From: Sphingobium sp. EP60837
GTDB lineage: Bacteria > Pseudomonadota > Alphaproteobacteria > Sphingomonadales > Sphingomonadaceae
Length of the DNA stretch: 64,000 bases
Assembly: GCF_001658005.1 (NCBI RefSeq)
Contig: NZ_CP015986.1
Span: 1,675,501 to 1,739,500 of the forward strand
Direction of reading: 5' to 3'
Shown here: in pieces, positions 44,832 to 53,803 of the stretch
Numbering within the stretch: position 1 is the stretch's first letter
Layout: each line of letters starts with the position of its first letter
The notes under the pieces: generated by a model
Database searches by the model: none
The model's input: the letters and a program-made list of their open reading frames with translations, nothing else
Told to the model about the DNA's origin: nothing
Program-made: the position numbers and the translations under genes

Positions 44832-44955
44832 GATGGCAATTTAGGACGCTCGCGCCTTGTTACAAGAAAAATACGGTCCTGGCCGCTTGGCAAGCCGACG
44901 ATCATTCGCTAATGGCCGCCGCTCGACCGGGTCGGCGCATGCTGAACCTTCTGCG

Positions 44956-45044
<89 letters not shown>

Positions 45045-45155: not shown

Positions 45156-45199
45156 TTTGGGGGCATTTTGGGGGCATCGAATTGAGGATTTGGGGGCAT
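45156..45199 (+). repeat. Three direct repeats tttgggggcat before the integrase
   Basis: The 11-mer occurs at 45156-45166, 45167-45177 and 45189-45199; the last one includes the integrase start codon ATG 45198. Integrase arm-type sites are arranged like this; binding would also repress the integrase gene. Inference. Confidence 0.6.
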
Positions 45200-46520
45200 G
45201 CTGACTGACGCTGCAATTCGAAAGGCGAAGCCTAGGGACAAGGACTACAAACTTGCCGATTCTGGGGGGTTGTATCTGTTCGTAACGAAAACCGGCCACC
45301 GCAGCTGGCGGCTCAAATACCGCTTCGCAGACAAAGAGAAGCGCCTCGTGTTGGGAAGCTACCCCGATCTGTCGTTGGTCGAGGCTAGGGGCATGCGGGA
45401 TGACGCCAAACGGATGTTACGAGACGGCCGCGATCCGGTGATCGAGGCGAAGAAGCGCAAGCTCGCCAACGTGGCTCAGATGGAGAACACGTTCGAGAAG
45501 GTGGGCAGGCAATGGTATGCCGATCAAGTAGCTCGTTGGAAACCTGTACATGCGGCCGATGTCATCAACAGTCTGGAGCGAGATATTTTTCCTGCCATTG
45601 GAGGGCTTCCCATAACCGACATCGACGAGCCCCTTCTCCTCGCCACACTCAAAAAAGTTGAAGCGCGAGGGTCTATTGAGACCTCTCATCGCTTACTCCA
45701 GCGGTGTTCAGCGATATTCAAATATGGCAAGGGTCTCGGTGCGTGCCGCGAGAACCCTGCCGCTGATATGAAGGTCAGCCTAAAGGCCGTTCCCCCTGCA
45801 CGCAGGTGGCCTGCGCTGACGGAGATGGATGAGATTCAGGCGCTGATTCGTGCCGTTGATCGCTCGGCCTCTCATCCGATTACCCGCCTCGCATCAAGAA
45901 TGATGGCGCTGACTGCTCAGCGACCAGGGATGATTCGAACCGCGCCCTGGAGCGAATTCGAGGGCATCGATTGGGATAAGCCAGATGAGCGTGCCGATAG
46001 GCCGCTGTGGCGTATCCCGGCTGCCCGGATCAAGCTCATGCTCGTACTCCGTGAAGATGAGGTGTTCGAACATATTGTCCCGCTTTCGCACCAAGCTGTG
46101 GAGGTTCTTCGTGTCGCCCGTCTTCTTTCGGGTCGCGGCCCCTTAGCGTTTCCTGGGGCGCGCAGCGGCTTGGAACCGTTGAGTGAAAATGCCGTCGGAT
46201 ATTTGTACAATCGGATCGGGTATAAGGGGCGTCATGTCCCGCATGGATGGCGTTCATCCTTTTCCACCACGATGAATGGCCTGGTGGAGCGATCGCACCC
46301 AGGTTCAGATCGTCTCCTGATCGACCGGCTCATTATCGACCTAATGCTAGCGCACATCCCGGCAGGGATGTCTGGTAGCGAACTCATCTATAATCGTGCG
46401 GCTTACATGGAGCGGAGAAGGGAGCTGGCGCAAAAATGGGCGGATCTAATTATGGAGGATCAACAGTCTGCTTCGGTGCTCTTGAGCGGCCCAAGGAGGT
46501 CTAGGGCTAACACACGTTGA
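45198..46520 (+). CDS. P4-type tyrosine recombinase/integrase
   Basis: Site-specific recombinase of the phage P4 family, 440 aa. An N-terminal arm-binding domain (DUF4102-like, LTDAAIRKAKPRDKDYKLAD onward) is followed by a core-binding domain (about 100-190) and the catalytic domain. Catalytic residues are R242 (TAQRPGMIR), H349 and R352 (HGWR), a second His in LAHIPAG, and the Tyr nucleophile, probably Y398 in IYNRAAY (Y403 also possible). It sits 153 bases after tRNA-Ser, pointing into the island. Length is somewhat above the 390-420 aa common for this group because of a polar C-terminal tail. Confidence 0.95.
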   Translation: MLTDAAIRKAKPRDKDYKLADSGGLYLFVTKTGHRSWRLKYRFADKEKRLVLGSYPDLSLVEARGMRDDAKRMLRDGRDPVIEAKKRKLANVAQMENTFEKVGRQWYADQVARWKPVHAADVINSLERDIFPAIGGLPITDIDEPLLLATLKKVEARGSIETSHRLLQRCSAIFKYGKGLGACRENPAADMKVSLKAVPPARRWPALTEMDEIQALIRAVDRSASHPITRLASRMMALTAQRPGMIRTAPWSEFEGIDWDKPDERADRPLWRIPAARIKLMLVLREDEVFEHIVPLSHQAVEVLRVARLLSGRGPLAFPGARSGLEPLSENAVGYLYNRIGYKGRHVPHGWRSSFSTTMNGLVERSHPGSDRLLIDRLIIDLMLAHIPAGMSGSELIYNRAAYMERRRELAQKWADLIMEDQQSASVLLSGPRRSRANTR

Positions 46521-46667: not shown

Positions 46668-46724
46668 CACTAAAAGTAGTGCTAAGAGCTTTGAGCTTTG
46701 AAACGTTGGTCATATAATGTCCGT
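46668..46724 (+). promoter_or_regulatory. Candidate promoter and operator of the R-M-like operon (possibly leaderless)
   Basis: An inverted repeat cacta-aaag-tagtg (46668-46681) is followed by a tandem gagcttt repeat (46687-46700) containing a -35-like TTGAGC (46691-46696). Sixteen bases on is a perfect TATAAT (46713-46718). A start point 7-8 bases downstream falls at the ATG at 46726. This would give a leaderless mRNA for the DUF6471 gene. Predicted from sequence only. Confidence 0.55.
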
Positions 46725-46725
46725 C

Positions 46726-47070
46726 ATGACCAGCTATGATGATTCAGGTCCAGCGTCCATCTTCGATGACAGGGCCTGGGAAGAGACCGCAAAAAACATG
46801 CTGCGCGCCGAAATGATGCGCCGCGGCATTTCCTATGCGACTTTGGCTGAGATGCTTTCCGGCATCGGCGTCGGCGACAACGAGTTGAACGTGAAAAACA
46901 AGGTCGGCCGCGGCAAGTTCAGCGCTGTCTTCCTCTTGCAGTGCTTGATGGCGCTGGGTGTCGAGTGGATACAGGTCCCGAAGTCGCTTGATGAGGCATC
47001 CGGAAGGGGTGGTGCGCAGCATCTCGCGAAAGGCCCTCGCGCGCCAGGCGAAGGAGGGATGGCCAGATGA
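46726..47070 (+). CDS. DUF6471 domain protein, possible controller of the R-M-like operon
   Basis: Small protein, 114 aa, matching the DUF6471 family: KNMLRAEMMRRGISYATLAEML, then a short loop with GDNELNVKNKVGRGKFSAVFLLQCL, which has the layout of a helix-turn-helix domain. A basic, Gly-rich tail follows. I use ATG 46726; ATG 46717 lies within the TATAAT box and has no ribosome site either. The stop overlaps the next gene (ATGA). Position first in an R-M-like operon and a possible leaderless start recall C (controller) proteins of R-M systems, but the function is inferred. Confidence 0.75.
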   Translation: MTSYDDSGPASIFDDRAWEETAKNMLRAEMMRRGISYATLAEMLSGIGVGDNELNVKNKVGRGKFSAVFLLQCLMALGVEWIQVPKSLDEASGRGGAQHLAKGPRAPGEGGMAR

Positions 47071-47714
47071 TCAAGACCAGACAGCGAGTCATTGACCACG
47101 GGGAGGTGTTCACCGACGAACGTGAGGTGAATGCCATGCTCGACTTGGTCAAATCCGAGACGCAGAGGATCGACAGCAGATTCCTTGAGCCCGCCTGCGG
47201 ATCGGGAAATTTTCTGATCGAGGTCCTTCGTCGCAAGCTGAGCATTGTCGAGGAACGCTATGGGCGGGGACAACTCGAGTTCGAGCGATACTCTATTCTG
47301 GCACTTGGCTCGATTTATGGCGTCGACCTGCTGGAGGACAACGTATCTGAATGCCGTGACCGACTCTACGAATATTTCAACGACATTTACTCGCGCTACT
47401 TCGGCCCGGAATGCCGCGATGAATGTCGTTCCTCGGCAAGATATGTTCTGGATCGTAACATCGTTTGCGGTGACGCGCTCACGATGACGACCGTAGGCCG
47501 TCGACCCCAACCGATCGTCTTTTCGGAGTGGTCTCCGGTCAATGGCAGCCTCGTGAAGCGCCGCGATTACTCGCTGGCACATCTCTTGGTATATCAGCCG
47601 ATGGAAGGTCCCAGTCTGTTCTCCGATTTGGGGGAGGAGGCCTTTATCCCGAAGCCCGTCCGTGAATTCCCTCTGACTCATTACCTGAAGCTGGCTGAGG
47701 CTGAGCATGCTTGA
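47067..47714 (+). CDS. Methylase-like protein with SAM motif but no NPPY (N6-adenine type)
   Basis: Protein of 215 aa resembling the N-terminal half of an N6-adenine DNA methylase. The SAM-binding motif I is intact (FLEPACGSGNFLIEVL near residues 39-54), and motif II-like YGVDLLEDNV and GDALTM are present. Where motif IV (NPPY) should follow, the sequence reads PIVFSEWSPVNGS instead, so it is probably not catalytic alone. It overlaps the upstream DUF6471 gene by four bases and the downstream methylase by eight. It may supply the cofactor-binding part of a two-subunit enzyme together with the next gene product. Confidence 0.75.
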   Translation: MIKTRQRVIDHGEVFTDEREVNAMLDLVKSETQRIDSRFLEPACGSGNFLIEVLRRKLSIVEERYGRGQLEFERYSILALGSIYGVDLLEDNVSECRDRLYEYFNDIYSRYFGPECRDECRSSARYVLDRNIVCGDALTMTTVGRRPQPIVFSEWSPVNGSLVKRRDYSLAHLLVYQPMEGPSLFSDLGEEAFIPKPVREFPLTHYLKLAEAEHA

Positions 47715-49251
47715 GATCAACTACAATCCCGACGTCCTCAGCTGCCTGGCAAACTTAAGCAACGACGAGGTCTTCACACCGCCAGAGCTGGCGAACGAGA
47801 TTCTTGATCAGCTTCCAGCTAGCCTGTGGTCTGACAGCGGCGCTACTTTCCTCGATCCAGTTACCAAATCCGGGGTGTTTTTGCGCGAGATCGCAAAGCG
47901 CCTGATCGAGGGTCTGAAGGGGGAGTTCCCAGACGAGCAGGAGCGGGTCAATCACATCTTCAAAAACCAGCTGTACGGGATTGCTATCACCGAGCTCACT
48001 GCGCTTCTGGCCCGTAGATCGGTTTACTGCTCCAAGAGCGCAAACAGCCCCTTCTCCGCCTGCACCGACTTCGATGGTCCAGATGGCAACATCCGGTTTA
48101 GCCGGGTCGAGCACACATGGGATGGCAATCGCTGCAGATACTGTGGTGCTTCAAAATCCTTGATGGCGCGTGGCGATGATCTCGAAACGCATGCCTATAA
48201 ATTCATTCACACTGACAAACCCGAAGGCCTCTTCGACATGAAGTTCGACGTCATCATTGGTAACCCTCCATACCAACTCTCGGACGGTGGGCACAACGCA
48301 AGTGCGAGCCCAATATATCATAAGTTCGTGGAGCAGGCGAAGAAGCTCAATCCCTCTTATCTGATCATGATCATCCCAGCGCGCTGGTATTCCGGAGGTA
48401 AAGGCTTGGACGGATTTCGGGCTGAGATGCTGGCGGACAAATCTATCAAAAAGCTCGTCGACTACCCGAAGCTATATGACGCCTTCCCCGGCGTTAAAAT
48501 CCGTGGAGGGGTATGCTACTTTCTCCGCGACAAGAATTACCAAGGTCCGTGCGCGATTCAGACGATGTGGGACAACCTCCCGCTCGGTGATCCGATGGAA
48601 CGCCATCTCAATCAATACGACGTTCTGGTTCGGCGCAACGAAGCAATCTCGATCTTGGAGAAGGTTAAGGGGTTCAGGGAAAACGGGCAGCGGGAGGGCA
48701 CCTACGATACCGTGGTGTCCAGCTCAAAACCGTTCGGGTTCAGGACCAACTTCCATGGGCGGGCTTATCGACGTGGATTGGCCGATCCAGTGAAGCTCTA
48801 CGGATCACAGAAGGTCAGCTGGATTGATAGAGGCCAGGTCCAGCAGAATGCTGAATGGATCGATCAGTGGAAAGTGTTGATGTCTGCCGTGCAGGGAACC
48901 AGCGCTGCCATTGAATCGAAGTTCCTCAGCGCTCCCAAGATCATCGCCCCCGGTGAGGTTTGTTCGGAAACCTACAATGTGGCCGGCAGGTTCGACGACC
49001 GCGAATCGGTAGTACGCTGCGCGAGTTATCTTAAGACCCGTTTTGTCCGGTTCTTGGTCTCGTTGCGTAAAATTTCCGTCCATGCGTCCAAGGACGTCTA
49101 CAGCTTTGTGCCAGTGGTCCCCTTTGACCGTATGTGGACTGATGAGGCCCTCTATAATCGCTACGGCCTGACCGATGCCGAAATCGCTTACATCGAGGAG
49201 ACAGTGGCGCCGATCGAATTGGAACTCGATCTGGAGTCAGTCGATGCCTGA
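47707..49251 (+). CDS. Eco57I-like N6-adenine methylase subunit with degenerate SAM motif
   Basis: Methylase of 514 aa. The start ATG 47707 overlaps the preceding gene by eight bases. The motif I position reads FLDPVTKSGVFLREI (near residues 49-63): Thr-Lys replace the usual Cys-Gly, so SAM binding may be weak. The catalytic motif IV is intact (IIGNPPYQLSDGG, near 184-196). A CRYCG segment near 142-147 may be half of a zinc site. The C-terminal half (about 290-500) should be the target-recognition part. Annotation pipelines would call it an Eco57I-type methylase. It appears to complement the preceding subunit. Confidence 0.85.
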   Translation: MLEINYNPDVLSCLANLSNDEVFTPPELANEILDQLPASLWSDSGATFLDPVTKSGVFLREIAKRLIEGLKGEFPDEQERVNHIFKNQLYGIAITELTALLARRSVYCSKSANSPFSACTDFDGPDGNIRFSRVEHTWDGNRCRYCGASKSLMARGDDLETHAYKFIHTDKPEGLFDMKFDVIIGNPPYQLSDGGHNASASPIYHKFVEQAKKLNPSYLIMIIPARWYSGGKGLDGFRAEMLADKSIKKLVDYPKLYDAFPGVKIRGGVCYFLRDKNYQGPCAIQTMWDNLPLGDPMERHLNQYDVLVRRNEAISILEKVKGFRENGQREGTYDTVVSSSKPFGFRTNFHGRAYRRGLADPVKLYGSQKVSWIDRGQVQQNAEWIDQWKVLMSAVQGTSAAIESKFLSAPKIIAPGEVCSETYNVAGRFDDRESVVRCASYLKTRFVRFLVSLRKISVHASKDVYSFVPVVPFDRMWTDEALYNRYGLTDAEIAYIEETVAPIELELDLESVDA

Positions 49252-51727
49252 TCCGTTTTTTCCGCCTAAGCCCGACATCAATCCCAAAATTTACGCCTAT
49301 CGAGATAAGAGCCCTGCTTACGAAGGCATGCTCAAGGTCGGCTTTACGGCACGCGATGTCGAGAGCCGCGTAGCGCAGCAGTATCCGACCAAGCGCCCAG
49401 GTGAGTTGCCCTACGAAATCGTGCTCGAGGAGAGCGCGGTCTGGAATGATGGAGGCTCTTTCACCGACCGCGATATCCATCGTCAGCTTCGTAAAAAGGG
49501 GGTCCGCAATCCCGCGGGCGAATGGTTCAAGTGCAGTGTCGATGATGTCCGCGCCGCTGTCCTGGCGGTTCGTGAAGGCATCGACAACGAAGACAACCGG
49601 ACGCAGAACTTCAAGATGCGTCCGGAGCAAGCGGCCGCGGTGGAGAAGACCGTGCGGTATTTCACCAGCTTCAACGATGACGAAGGAAACCATACTCCGC
49701 ACTTCCTCTGGAACGCGAAGATGCGCTTCGGGAAGACGTTCGCTTCGTATCAGCTTGTGAAGCGCATGGGTTGGAACAAGGTGCTTGTGCTCACCTTCAA
49801 GCCGGCCGTGCAGAATGCCTGGGAAGAGGACCTCAAAGGCCACATCGACTTCGAGGGGTGGCAGTTCGTGTCACGGGGCGGCCTGTCCGAGGCTGAGGTT
49901 GATATATCCCGTCCAATCGTGTGCTTTGGCTCTTTCCAAGACTTCCTCGGCAAAAACTCCGTCGGCGGTATCAAGGCCAAGAACGAGTGGGTTCACGCGA
50001 CCAATTGGGACTGCGTGATCTTCGACGAATATCATTACGGCGCTTGGCGCGAGAGCGCGAAAGAATTGTTCGAAGCCGAGGATCGCAGGGAATTGGAATT
50101 CGCCCAAGGCGATGGTCTCGACTACTTCTCCGAGGAGAACATGCCGATCACAACGGGCGCATACCTGTATCTGTCAGGAACCCCTTTCCGCGCGATTGCA
50201 TCGGGGGAGTTCATTGAGGAGCAGATCTACAACTGGACCTATTCCGATGAACAGCGGGCGAAGGAGCAATGGGAAGGCGAAGACAATCCCTATGCCTCTT
50301 TGCCGCGAATGGTGATGCTCACCTACCAATTGCCTGATGCGATCCGGGAAATTGCCATGCAGGGTGAGTTCGACGAGTTTGACCTCAATGTCTTCTTTTC
50401 GGCCGAGGGCGAAGGCGATCAGGCACGTTTCAAATACAAGGACGAGGTTCAGAGCTGGCTCGATCTCATCCGCGGGTCCTACGAGGAAACTGCGATAGAC
50501 AATCTTCGGCTTGGCAACGAGCGACCGCCGATGCCGTTCTCAGACGTGCGCCTCCTGAATCTCTTGTCGCACACCTTCTGGTATCTGCCGTCCGTGGCAG
50601 CGTGCCACGCGATGAAGAACCTGATGTCCGAGCGCCAGAACCGCTTTTATCATGACTACAACGTGATGGTTTGCGCGGGTAGTAGAGCTGGTATCGGCGT
50701 GGCGGCGCTCCAGCCTGTCCTGGACGGCATGGAGGATCCGCTTAAGTCCAAGTCTATCACTTTGTCGTGTGGGAAGCTGACCACCGGTGTGTCCGTGAAA
50801 CCATGGAGCGGCATCCTGATGCTTCGAAACATCTCTAGCCCGGAGAGCTACTTCCAGGCGGCGTTTCGCGTGCAGACGCCCTGGGTCGTCCAGAATCCTG
50901 ATTCTGGGTCTCCATCCAGGCGGGAGATCGTCAAACAGGAATGCTACGTTTTCGACTTCGCACCCAACCGCGCGCTCAAGCAAGTAGCTGATTACAGTTG
51001 CCGTCTCAATGTGGACGAGACGAACGCCGAGAAGAAGGTCGAGGAGTTCATCCACTTCCTCCCTGTTCTGGCTTACGACGGCAGTTCCATGCGCCAGATC
51101 GACGCCGTCGGCGTGCTCGATATGGCGATGAGCGGGACGACAGCCACACTGCTCGCGCGGCGCTGGGAAAGCGCGTTGCTGGTGAACGTGGACAACAACA
51201 CCCTGCAGCGACTGATGAACAGCGACGCCGCCATGCAAGCGCTGATGAAGATCGAAGGCTTTCGTAATCTCAATCAGGAAATCGAGACGATCATCAACAA
51301 GTCAGAATCGGTCAAGAAGACGAGGGCCGAAGCCAGCGATCGTGATCTGACGGCAAAGGAAAAGAAGGAGCTCAGTGAGGAGGAGAAGGAATACAAGAGT
51401 GTCCGCAAGGAGATCCAGACGAAGCTGGTCAAGTTCGCGACGCGCATCCCGATCTTCATGTATCTCACGGATTACCGCGAAAAGTGCTTGCGTGACATCA
51501 TTACACAGCTCGAGCCAAGGCTATTTAAGAAGGTCACCGGACTGGGAATTCCGGATTTCGAACTCTTAGTCAGCCTGGGCGTCTTCAACAGCGGGCTGAT
51601 GAATGACGCCGTCTACAAGTTCAAGCGATATGAGGACGCTAGCTTGTCCTACACTGGACTTAATCGCCACGAGGGTGCGGACGTCGGCCTATACGACACT
51701 GTAATATCGGCGCACGAATTCGTCTGA
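49244..51727 (+). CDS. GIY-YIG nuclease-SF2 helicase fusion (restriction subunit)
   Basis: Effector-like protein, 827 aa. Residues 15-100 are a T5orf172-type GIY-YIG nuclease: IYAYRD, LKVGFTARD with R42, HRQLRKKGV, and the metal-binding Glu93 in GEWFK. From about residue 120 a superfamily 2 helicase follows: MRPEQ, motif I AKMRFGKT (K164), motif II DEYHYGAW, motif III YLSGTPFRA, and motif VI FQAAFRVQ. A charged coiled coil (EKKELSEEEKEYKSVRKEIQ) and a helical C-terminal domain complete it. ATG 49244 overlaps the methylase gene by eight bases. This combination points to ATP-driven DNA translocation and cleavage in a restriction or other defence system. Confidence 0.85.
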   Translation: MPDPFFPPKPDINPKIYAYRDKSPAYEGMLKVGFTARDVESRVAQQYPTKRPGELPYEIVLEESAVWNDGGSFTDRDIHRQLRKKGVRNPAGEWFKCSVDDVRAAVLAVREGIDNEDNRTQNFKMRPEQAAAVEKTVRYFTSFNDDEGNHTPHFLWNAKMRFGKTFASYQLVKRMGWNKVLVLTFKPAVQNAWEEDLKGHIDFEGWQFVSRGGLSEAEVDISRPIVCFGSFQDFLGKNSVGGIKAKNEWVHATNWDCVIFDEYHYGAWRESAKELFEAEDRRELEFAQGDGLDYFSEENMPITTGAYLYLSGTPFRAIASGEFIEEQIYNWTYSDEQRAKEQWEGEDNPYASLPRMVMLTYQLPDAIREIAMQGEFDEFDLNVFFSAEGEGDQARFKYKDEVQSWLDLIRGSYEETAIDNLRLGNERPPMPFSDVRLLNLLSHTFWYLPSVAACHAMKNLMSERQNRFYHDYNVMVCAGSRAGIGVAALQPVLDGMEDPLKSKSITLSCGKLTTGVSVKPWSGILMLRNISSPESYFQAAFRVQTPWVVQNPDSGSPSRREIVKQECYVFDFAPNRALKQVADYSCRLNVDETNAEKKVEEFIHFLPVLAYDGSSMRQIDAVGVLDMAMSGTTATLLARRWESALLVNVDNNTLQRLMNSDAAMQALMKIEGFRNLNQEIETIINKSESVKKTRAEASDRDLTAKEKKELSEEEKEYKSVRKEIQTKLVKFATRIPIFMYLTDYREKCLRDIITQLEPRLFKKVTGLGIPDFELLVSLGVFNSGLMNDAVYKFKRYEDASLSYTGLNRHEGADVGLYDTVISAHEFV

Positions 51728-51984: not shown

Positions 51985-52380
51985 TTAAATTTTTGGGCTT
52001 GAGCACCATGCATCTACTTCTTCCTCCCGCCACCCAGCGCAGTTCCAGGAGATATGAATTTGTGCCGGGAATGTTCCGGCTGCTATTTTATTGTACAACG
52101 TAGACCTTTTTAACCCTGTCCTGCGCATGACGTCAGGAAGGCGCAGGAATGTTGAATTGGATCCGCTCGTCGGCATCTTCGGTCCCGATGACGTCCCATA
52201 TGACATGCATATGGGAAGGATAGCGCAGATGAGGCCTGTCCGCTCTTTGGCCGGGAGATGGCTAAGTGCGTGTGCCAAGCTCGACACCAACTCCGCTACG
52301 TCGTCAGAATCGGCTCGGTGCGCGCGGATTGCTGCGCGAGCGGCGGACGATTGAGTATTTATTGCGCGGGCGTTGGTCAT
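51985..52380 (-). CDS. AlpA family phage-type regulator
   Basis: Protein of 131 aa with a C-terminal AlpA/MerR-type helix-turn-helix: FLRLPDVMRRTGLKRSTLY, then the wing region and WREEEVDAW near residues 115-123. AlpA proteins act as excisionase-like regulators of P4-type integrases. The N-terminal 70 residues (Ala- and Ser-rich) are not part of the domain. The wing has CAG where most members have a basic loop. The start at 52380 lies within the end of the 499-aa gene (77-base overlap); a shorter start is possible. It probably controls excision of this element. Confidence 0.8.
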   Translation of the reverse strand: MTNARAINTQSSAARAAIRAHRADSDDVAELVSSLAHALSHLPAKERTGLICAILPICMSYGTSSGPKMPTSGSNSTFLRLPDVMRRTGLKRSTLYNKIAAGTFPAQIHISWNCAGWREEEVDAWCSSPKI

Positions 52381-53803
52381 GGCTAACCTTAGGTTCGGCC
52401 ATGGCGCACTTCGCGGTAGATGATGGCAAATTTAATCCCAAGCGGTAGTCGGGCAGCAAATCCAGCTCTTGCACTCCCATCATGCCTATCGTGTCGGCGA
52501 GCGGCACAGTGCCTCGACTAATCGCACTTTTCATCGGGTAATCTCGCTTTGCATCTTTTAGCAGGGATATGCCGGCCACGTTGCCATCTTGCTCATGCGA
52601 TTTCATTTGTTTTAACAGAGCGAGAGCATCTCCGTTCGAGCTAAATCCTGTACCGGCTTGATCATCCTTCAGGATCAGTGTTCTAATAACGAAGAGAATT
52701 GCGGTGGCGTCCTTCTGCCTCTTGGCGGGGAGATCCGCTGTTAGCCATCCTTGAAAAGCGATCTCACGTCGATTTGCATTGATCGACGTCAGATCTCTTT
52801 TTCTTCTCGATAAGTTAATTAGCCGGTGAGCGGCAAAGGCGAGTTGAATGCCCGCGCTTACACCAAAAAAATAGGTAGATGCAGCTGTGCTTTTAAATCT
52901 ATCGCTTCCATGTCTCGGGGAAGCCTTAAAAGATGGATCGGCTTTCACTTGGACAAGGTATTCTTTCATCTCGAGGAAAAAGTCGTATAGCTCTTTGCTG
53001 ATATGACCGAAGCTCTCGTCGTGATCGACCTCGGAAATGCCTAGAGAACTTGCAGTTTGCTGCGCAAAGCTTTCATCGAATCTTTGAGCGAGCACGGGAG
53101 GTTGCCCCCGAAGCATTGGAAGCTCGTTAATTTTTCGTCTATTTTGCTCAAACCGATAGATATACGCATTGACGATGTCGGACACGAGGTCAAACGCAGC
53201 ACGTTCCGTCACGTCAGTATAGCCGAAAGGCAAAAATTTGCCAGCGTCCAACGCCACGGCTCGTGCTGCGATAAGTTGCATTTCGAACATCGAATAAAGC
53301 ACCAGCAGGTCCGCAGTGCATGAGGTCGCATGGACCAGATGTTTTCCAGCCAAGGCCGAAATTGCGATTGAATTTAGAGCGTCTTCTAAATTCCCGCTAA
53401 TTATATCGACAAATAGCAGCGGATCTTTTTCACGAATCTTGATAAGATTTGATGCCAATTCCGGTAGTTGAATCTTCAAAGCTTTAGCAACAAGGTCCCG
53501 GCCCTCCGCATGAGGGCAGGCACATAGCATGTGGTTCAAAACATTAATAATGTGGTCTTCGCTTTTGTCCTCAAGGCTGAGGGCGAGATCGCGTGGCATT
53601 CGGATGCGATGGTCCATCAGGTGTCCGATGGGTAAACTAGCGAGATCCGCTTCTGTGAACAGGCGAGCTAGATACTCTTGTCGGTCCATCCCATGCGTCT
53701 GGACCCGCAGCACGACGTCCTTAGCCAACGCGCGGATCATCTCCATGTCCACCGGTCCGCTTCCAAAGCCGCGCGGAAAAAAATCTGAAAGATCTTCGAA
53801 CAT
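52304..53803 (-). CDS. Hypothetical 499-aa protein of the island
   Basis: Unrecognised protein of 499 aa, mostly helical, with one possible hydrophobic segment (YFFGVSAGIQLAFAA near residues 300-314) and no signal peptide. Base composition is visibly lower in GC than the flanking genes, which suggests recent acquisition. The last 25 residues, in the alpA overlap, are rich in Arg and Ser and may not be conserved. A short intergenic region with two palindromes precedes it. No catalytic motif is visible. Given its place between two defence loci, it might be a defence or regulatory gene, but this is speculation. Confidence 0.6.
   Translation of the reverse strand: MFEDLSDFFPRGFGSGPVDMEMIRALAKDVVLRVQTHGMDRQEYLARLFTEADLASLPIGHLMDHRIRMPRDLALSLEDKSEDHIINVLNHMLCACPHAEGRDLVAKALKIQLPELASNLIKIREKDPLLFVDIISGNLEDALNSIAISALAGKHLVHATSCTADLLVLYSMFEMQLIAARAVALDAGKFLPFGYTDVTERAAFDLVSDIVNAYIYRFEQNRRKINELPMLRGQPPVLAQRFDESFAQQTASSLGISEVDHDESFGHISKELYDFFLEMKEYLVQVKADPSFKASPRHGSDRFKSTAASTYFFGVSAGIQLAFAAHRLINLSRRKRDLTSINANRREIAFQGWLTADLPAKRQKDATAILFVIRTLILKDDQAGTGFSSNGDALALLKQMKSHEQDGNVAGISLLKDAKRDYPMKSAISRGTVPLADTIGMMGVQELDLLPDYRLGLNLPSSTAKCAMAEPKVSHDQRPRNKYSIVRRSRSNPRAPSRF

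Follow-up and report, generated by a model that had tools for sequence, protein, structure and literature searches.

Comparison with known systems

DNA methylases assembled from two polypeptides, neither of which is complete, are represented by M.AquI and M.EcoHK31I, which are cytosine-5 enzymes with motifs IX–X or IX in the small subunit (PMC3404938). An operon that appears to share this two-polypeptide arrangement was analysed in a 64,000-nucleotide stretch of the Sphingobium sp. EP60837 genome (NZ_CP015986.1, positions 1,675,501 to 1,739,500; hereafter the window). It comprises a gene for an S-adenosylmethionine (SAM, or AdoMet)-binding methylase half, S; a longer gene, NC, for a pseudo-SAM half, N, joined to a half, C, containing the catalytic motif and the target-recognition domain (TRD); and a gene for a nuclease-helicase, H. 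In contrast to M.AquI and M.EcoHK31I, this would be a γ-class adenine enzyme divided between motifs III and IV; it would also have a third, pseudo-half and an internal start.

The Type ISP enzymes LlaGI and LlaBIII (PMC4872093, PMC3874165) have in common with this operon a superfamily 2 (SF2) helicase coupled to a γ-class N6-adenine methylase and TRD. They are single chains with an Mrr nuclease, whereas the operon has a T5orf172 nuclease, keeps its SAM half separate and adds a degenerate half linked to the helicase. In the window, nuclease, helicase, methylase and TRD are spread over three genes rather than united in one polypeptide, and the Pfam scan of the window gave no match to an Mrr nuclease, the nuclease there being T5orf172. 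LlaGI is described as flipping its target adenine without AdoMet (PMC4872093); a reader that lacks SAM is therefore plausible.

Starts that lie in frame inside a defence gene and produce a second, shorter subunit are described for McrBL/McrBS (PMC12707154) and Cas11 (PMC11899642), although these are not methylases and their short product regulates assembly or is a small subunit. Two different methylase subunits per enzyme likewise occur in Type I M1/M2 systems such as PacII, but each of these subunits has its own catalytic domain and recognition resides in HsdS (PMC9613975). Type I enzymes in general combine a complete HsdM with a separate HsdS carrying two TRDs, whereas here NPPY and the SAM site are in different genes; no HsdS-type match was found among the six window proteins scanned. 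Two PADLOC models match the family, PDLC03626 (1359 aa, IIG) corresponding to the helicase plus N-C chain and PDLC03375 (348 aa, MTase_II) to C alone. S was matched by neither model, which means that they miss the split partner. No split N6-adenine methylase of this kind, and no internal start in a methylase gene, was found in the open-licence full-text literature, to judge from titles, the openings of abstracts and selected passages; M.AquI, M.EcoHK31I, McrBS and Cas11 were the closest precedents among the papers searched.

Division of the methylase motifs between S and C

Motif numbers and roles are those of the methylase literature, in which the γ-class N6-adenine methylases have the order X-I-II-III-IV-TRD. 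The S gene (47067–47714; this and all other features of S, NC and H are on the + strand) encodes 215 amino acids (aa) with motifs X (DHGEVFT), I (EPACGSGNF, 47187–47213), II (YGVDLLEDN) and III (GDALT) and a III–IV linker; NPPY is absent. The NC gene (47707–49251; 514 aa; Pfam Eco57I, E value 4e–37) overlaps the S gene by eight bases (ATGCTTGA, 47707–47714). Its product has motif X (NDEVFTPP), DPVTKSGVF at motif I, YGIAITEL at motif II, where the acid is lost, and IIGNPPYQL, with the NPPY of motif IV at 48262–48273, in C. A preliminary description of this DNA had proposed two methylase subunits with complementary motif defects and an eight-base gene overlap, and the open reading frames (ORFs) and motifs bear this out.

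Relatives were collected with an S alignment, which gave at least 464 in bacterial genomes (the best 80 of 464, from many phyla, were used) and 75 in viral contigs, where a motif-II pattern was additionally applied; from a viral scan with C, the best 80 of 166 were used. Loci with identical stretches were collapsed before counting, so that 252 loci became 202 groups. Plasmids and phages are among the carriers. In the S rows of these de-duplicated loci, GxG was found at motif I in 185/185, a count in part circular, since an LEPA[CA]GxG pattern was used to retrieve most S loci, and the motif-II acid was kept in 185/185. NPP[YFW] was missing from 182 of the 183 S ORFs but was found in every N-C and helicase-N-C ORF (111/111).

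The N half (47707–48237) keeps motif X but is otherwise degenerate. In its altered motif I (DPVTKSGVF, 47854–47880), the position of the first Gly is occupied by Lys in 122 of 125 rows, by Thr in two and by Gly in one (locus L241, an ordinary methylase). Ser or Thr follows in 122 of the 125, and the motif-II acid is missing in 124. The Lys count is free of retrieval bias, since N was found by adjacency or via C. The motif split noticed in the preliminary description is thus a conserved property of homologous pairs. In the window the altered loop is K54-S55-G56 of the long protein (47866–47874); we take the K-[ST]-G of N to resemble a phosphate-binding loop. N also has an insert with a Cys143-x2-Cys146 pair (48133–48144) which, like His136, is invariant in the 83 long proteins aligned and is possibly metal-binding; many other residues of N are invariant in the same alignment.

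The preliminary description also had FSEWSPVNGS of S standing in place of NPPY. This was rejected: S-C fusions at loci L123 and L195 hold FAEW and then, downstream, NPPY. The FSEW element (47520–47531; Trp invariant, 8/8) is therefore the III–IV linker, and S ends before motif IV.

S is fused to C, with N absent, in L123, L195 and gp28 of Fusobacterium phage FNU4, the last with an S of a second class; a viral scan with the FNU4 fusion as query found no relative. In a phylogeny of the C halves, L195 pairs with L124 as its sister (support 100/100) and L123 falls with L121 and L115 (100/96), placing these two fusions on separate supported branches amid N-C proteins. S and C also occur as separate nearby genes without N in L130, L151 and Tenacibaculum phage PTm1 (L167:3001–5433), where one small gene lies between C (gp277) and a second-class S (gp279), and in the more distant L154 and L157. 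It is apparent that all γ-class motifs are present in the order X-I-II-III-IV-TRD across S (X–III) and C (IV, TRD), divided between two adjacent genes in the window and contiguous in L123 and L195. In view of the fusions and the N-less pairs, S and C are best read, on sequence evidence, as one split γ-class N6-adenine methylase.

A putative internal translation start

The N|C junction looks, from its sequence, like an internal translation start giving free C, a 337-aa protein (residues 178–514; 48238–49251) predicted as an extra product from the ATG at 48238. A conserved in-frame start codon and a ribosome-binding site inside the gene were found family-wide. Counts at the junction, and those relating N to the helicase below, were made with C matches above 100 bits only (129 groups), a cut that left out distant jumbo-phage forms such as L230, L247 and L249, among which are helicase plus C forms whose N-like half has GxG.

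The junction codon was ATG, GTG or TTG in 130 of 131 genes in three sets together, the genes being related and the rows thus not independent. The codon before [KQ]FDVIIGNPPY in N-C genes was ATG in 101 and GTG in two of 103, and the N-C gene of L058, missed by the junction pattern, also has Met at that position. Ten helicase-N-C genes gave ATG in four, GTG in two and TTG in three, the tenth (L203) having ATG one codon earlier; a later set of 18 genes, from a sample of one phylum, gave 17 ATG and one GTG. Every junction Val was encoded by GTG (5/5) and every junction Leu by TTG (3/3). For seven of the eight non-ATG codons, the joint probability under the codon usage of their own genes was 2e–6.

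The mean energy of anti-Shine–Dalgarno pairing upstream of the junction was −6.3 kcal/mol, compared with −1.9 for 868 other internal Met codons and −5.5 for the first Met of ORFs. Synonymous recoding with each gene's own codons raised the junction value from −6.32 to −3.77 (z −10.8; 0/200 recodings as low), and 412 other internal Met codons showed no such excess (z +1.4). The excess was seen among loci on bacterial genome contigs (z −7.7), in the helicase-N-C genes (z −3.6) and in the later set (z −3.1). In genes with P-E-E at the junction, GAG encoded the first Glu in 35 of 37 and the second Glu in 28 of 37, where 14.9 would be expected; other Glu-Glu pairs had GAG in 19 of 75, against 27.4 expected. 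A Shine–Dalgarno-like 5-mer lay within 20 bases of 78 of 113 junctions, as opposed to 68 of 973 other Met codons.

C also occurs as a gene of its own. Some plasmid and viral operons have it separate, with N joined to the helicase instead, in the order S, helicase-N, C (L010, L012, L202) or S, C, helicase-N (L207, L213), and in L010, L012, L207 and L213 the separate C gene starts at the N|C junction point. S is still a separate gene in fused relatives such as L005, L006, L008, L009 and L011.

Association of N with the nuclease-helicase

H (49244–51727) combines a T5orf172 nuclease (Pfam E value 6.5e–11) with an SF2 helicase (ResIII, 9.4e–7). Its likely start at 49244 gives an eight-base overlap with NC; the longest ORF begins at 49175. 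The GIY-YIG helicase neighbour of the preliminary description stands in so far as a T5orf172/ResIII helicase is there; the helicase neighbour is, however, usual in the family rather than peculiar to the window genome, and the Pfam GIY-YIG model PF01541 itself had zero matches in the window. The T5orf172 of H is presumably a GIY-YIG relative.

Among the 129 strong-C groups, 108 had N and helicase, 14 had N only, none had helicase only and seven had neither (Fisher p 1.2e–6). Restriction to loci with at least 2.9 kb downstream gave 91, 4, 0 and 6, respectively (p 1.7e–7). Five helicase-C fusions missed by the N profile (L006, L009, L138, L140, L205) were counted with N; the N stretch as read in them has K-T-G in four and R-S-G in L138. 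In six of the seven groups without N and helicase, S is adjacent or fused to C, the exception being L206. As the helicase never occurs without N in strong-C loci, a complex of N-C (N.C) is suggested as a methylation-dead restriction reader.

Distance matrices of S, N and H from 80 complete operons agree (rho 0.84–0.90; N with helicase, 0.85). Agreement with these three was lower for the first 100 residues of C (0.39–0.43) and, for the TRD (0.15–0.17), was about that of the permutation maxima. The TRD thus seems to be replaced while the S-N-H core stays constant. Mean identity was 0.53 for S versus 0.63 for N. The possibility that N is a relic was rejected in view of its invariant residues, its tie to the helicase and its co-evolution with it.

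Structure models

An AlphaFold2 model of the 514-aa protein, computed with an alignment of 83 of 99 N-C references, had a predicted local distance difference test score (pLDDT) of 90.3 and a predicted template modelling score (pTM) of 0.88, and matched CamA (TMq up to 0.57) and M.TaqI (1g38; TMt 0.62). N probably sits, according to this model, where the SAM half should, packed on C, its placement being regarded as canonical because of these matches. If N fills the docking site in this way, S could not dock on the full-length protein unless N moves, a difficulty that free C would solve.

The L195 S-C fusion was modelled with an alignment in which two rows span both halves and fifteen S rows are partly misaligned at the border. 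Its pLDDT was 83.5 and its pTM 0.70. Because the spanning rows are few and the border is misaligned, this model is regarded as uninformative or mildly adverse to a split S-C methylase.

Distribution and gene context

In the window's own phylum, full-length S and C were found, among 398 genomes, solely in the window genome and G011; three further genomes had short S matches. A 296-genome sample of one phylum, that of G399, had S in 22 genomes and C in 23 (25 places). N or N-C stood beside S in 19 of the 22; the other three have S at a contig end (G399) or as fragments (G603, G610). S was nearby at 18 of the 25 C places, and six were helicase-N-C without S, five of these with a second class of SAM half (LE-x-x-CGEAPY) upstream. 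In G435 a partial C lies on another contig than S and N.

When whole records were checked for 29 loci with S only, 26 had no C match: 24 viral records and two bacterial genomes in which S lies close to the end of a contig. The viral records, which may be fragments and in which a distant C may be missed, weaken the suggestion in the preliminary description that the association is obligate. Many of the orphan viral S proteins (L137, L139, L144, L145, L150 and others) are of about 150 aa. Such proteins could be decoys, or borrowers or blockers of a host's C.

The converse, several NPPY halves per single SAM half, was seen in the viral contigs L222:4347–9121, L249:2012–10316 and L203:464–6336. L222 has one S, three C ORFs that start MKFDVV(V/L)GNPPY and two C ORFs with NIPF; L249 has one S and five C-type ORFs, of which some carry their own N-like half. 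The arrangement looks as though a single cofactor subunit were shared by several specificity subunits.

The operon lies in what is considered a mobile island, because a tRNA-Ser(CGA) gene (44955–45044), an integrase gene (45198–46520) and a drop in G+C content (0.54–0.56 in the island versus approximately 0.63 in the flank) precede it. Immediately upstream, a DUF6471 protein (Pfam; 46717–47070, + strand) overlaps S by four bases; it was rejected as a component, being present solely at the window locus among the 252 loci, and is not a conserved part of the system. A 499-aa protein encoded on the − strand (52304–53803) adjoins the operon and had no Pfam, NCBIfam or PADLOC match at an E value of 1.

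Proposed model and alternatives

The data are best accommodated, with a probability that we put at roughly two in three, by a restriction-modification system built round a split γ-class methylase, in which the long gene is read twice. Translation from its own start would give N-C, and from the internal junction start free C, which would pair with S. S, as the cofactor half, and free C, as the catalytic and TRD half, would form one methylase, the writer. N, as a pseudo-SAM half, would have lost the ordinary mode of SAM binding and would act in concert with the nuclease-helicase. Together, N.C and the helicase would recognise the same target, leave it unmethylated and trigger restriction. The writer and the existence of the internal start are well supported by sequence comparison. 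Three points are inferred, namely actual use of this start, activity of S.C as the methylase and a reader role for N.C with the helicase, the last because N has lost the SAM site, is tied to the helicase and docks on C. The presence of a pseudo-SAM half, together with a conserved internal start that would release C, favours S.C over a pairing of S and the 514-aa protein as the active enzyme. The proposal in the preliminary description that the two proteins are halves of one N6-adenine methylase is thus supported by the fusions and the N-less pairs, but not its pairing of S with the whole long protein, in view of the N module and the internal start.

A number of observations weigh against this reading. 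The conserved ATG was rejected as evidence by itself, and proves nothing alone, because distant methylases also have ATG before KFDV (42 of 44 rows); the distant set, genuine C gene starts included, also has a Shine–Dalgarno excess, although a smaller one (z −3.0). The window's own junction has ATG but only a weak Shine–Dalgarno-like site (GAAGG, 48223–48227; duplex −3.3 kcal/mol), and about half of the 18 later genes have none. The spacing of the 5-mer is mostly 10–11 bases, which is longer than optimal; the Pro codon of P-E-E is unbiased (12 versus 11.2 expected); and the weak mRNA structure at the junction is equalled at some other offsets. AlphaFold2 docks N, not S, on C in the canonical place, and the fusion model of L195 is not canonical (M.TaqI TMt 0.42–0.48; root-mean-square deviation 12.8–15.3 Å). 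Among the loci, no S was found in the 3 kb upstream of the helicase-N-C gene of G594, L206 has C with neither S nor N found, and 24 viral records have S with no detectable C, although a distant C could be missed in them.

The obligate heterodimer originally envisaged, of S with the full 514-aa protein and no free C, would explain the junction signal as one that slows the ribosome so that N folds first. A Shine–Dalgarno-like site at a domain boundary could cause such pausing, and S does stand beside full N-C in most complete loci. Pausing, however, needs neither the invariable GTG for Val nor the invariable TTG for Leu; furthermore, N occupies the S site in the monomer model, and the S-C fusions and N-less pairs manage without N. 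This explanation is considered unlikely. Alternatively, the 514-aa protein might itself be the working methylase, holding SAM via the K-S-G loop, with S as an accessory SAM sensor or scaffold. The canonical packing of N on C, its retention of motif X and its conservation, greater than that of S, would fit such a role, but N has lost both GxG and the motif-II acid, and it is S that accompanies C in all but one of the strong-C groups without N and helicase, so that we regard this as improbable.

It might also be supposed that N and the duplicated halves reflect nothing more than the decay of an ancestral pair of methylase genes and serve no particular function, as the repeated emergence of N-less forms and fusions could indicate. 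A decaying module would hardly be expected to retain many invariant residues, to be better conserved than S, to co-evolve with the helicase and to be present in every strong-C group that has one, and this view is given very little credence.

The model of a gene read twice can be extended to half-swapping, in which C, made both alone and fused to N, would alternate between a writer with S and a dead reader with N and the helicase, at the same site. This extension is offered tentatively, being judged somewhat less probable than an even chance. If it is true, swapping the TRD of C would alter the specificity of writer and reader in a single step, and phages could turn the system to their advantage via an orphan S or several C proteins sharing one S.

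Significance

In database annotation, S and the long protein are named as separate methylases, and a free C encoded within N-C goes unannotated. The S-C pair would therefore have to be considered when methylomes are assigned for these widespread operons. The enzyme would be a natural amino-methylase split between motifs III and IV, its fragments may serve as a split adenine methylase tool, and a conserved internal translation start would be set at the heart of a restriction-modification system. If the model presented here is confirmed, one gene would both mark the organism's own DNA and recognise foreign DNA, which would explain simply how a single recognition domain can be used for modification and restriction alike.

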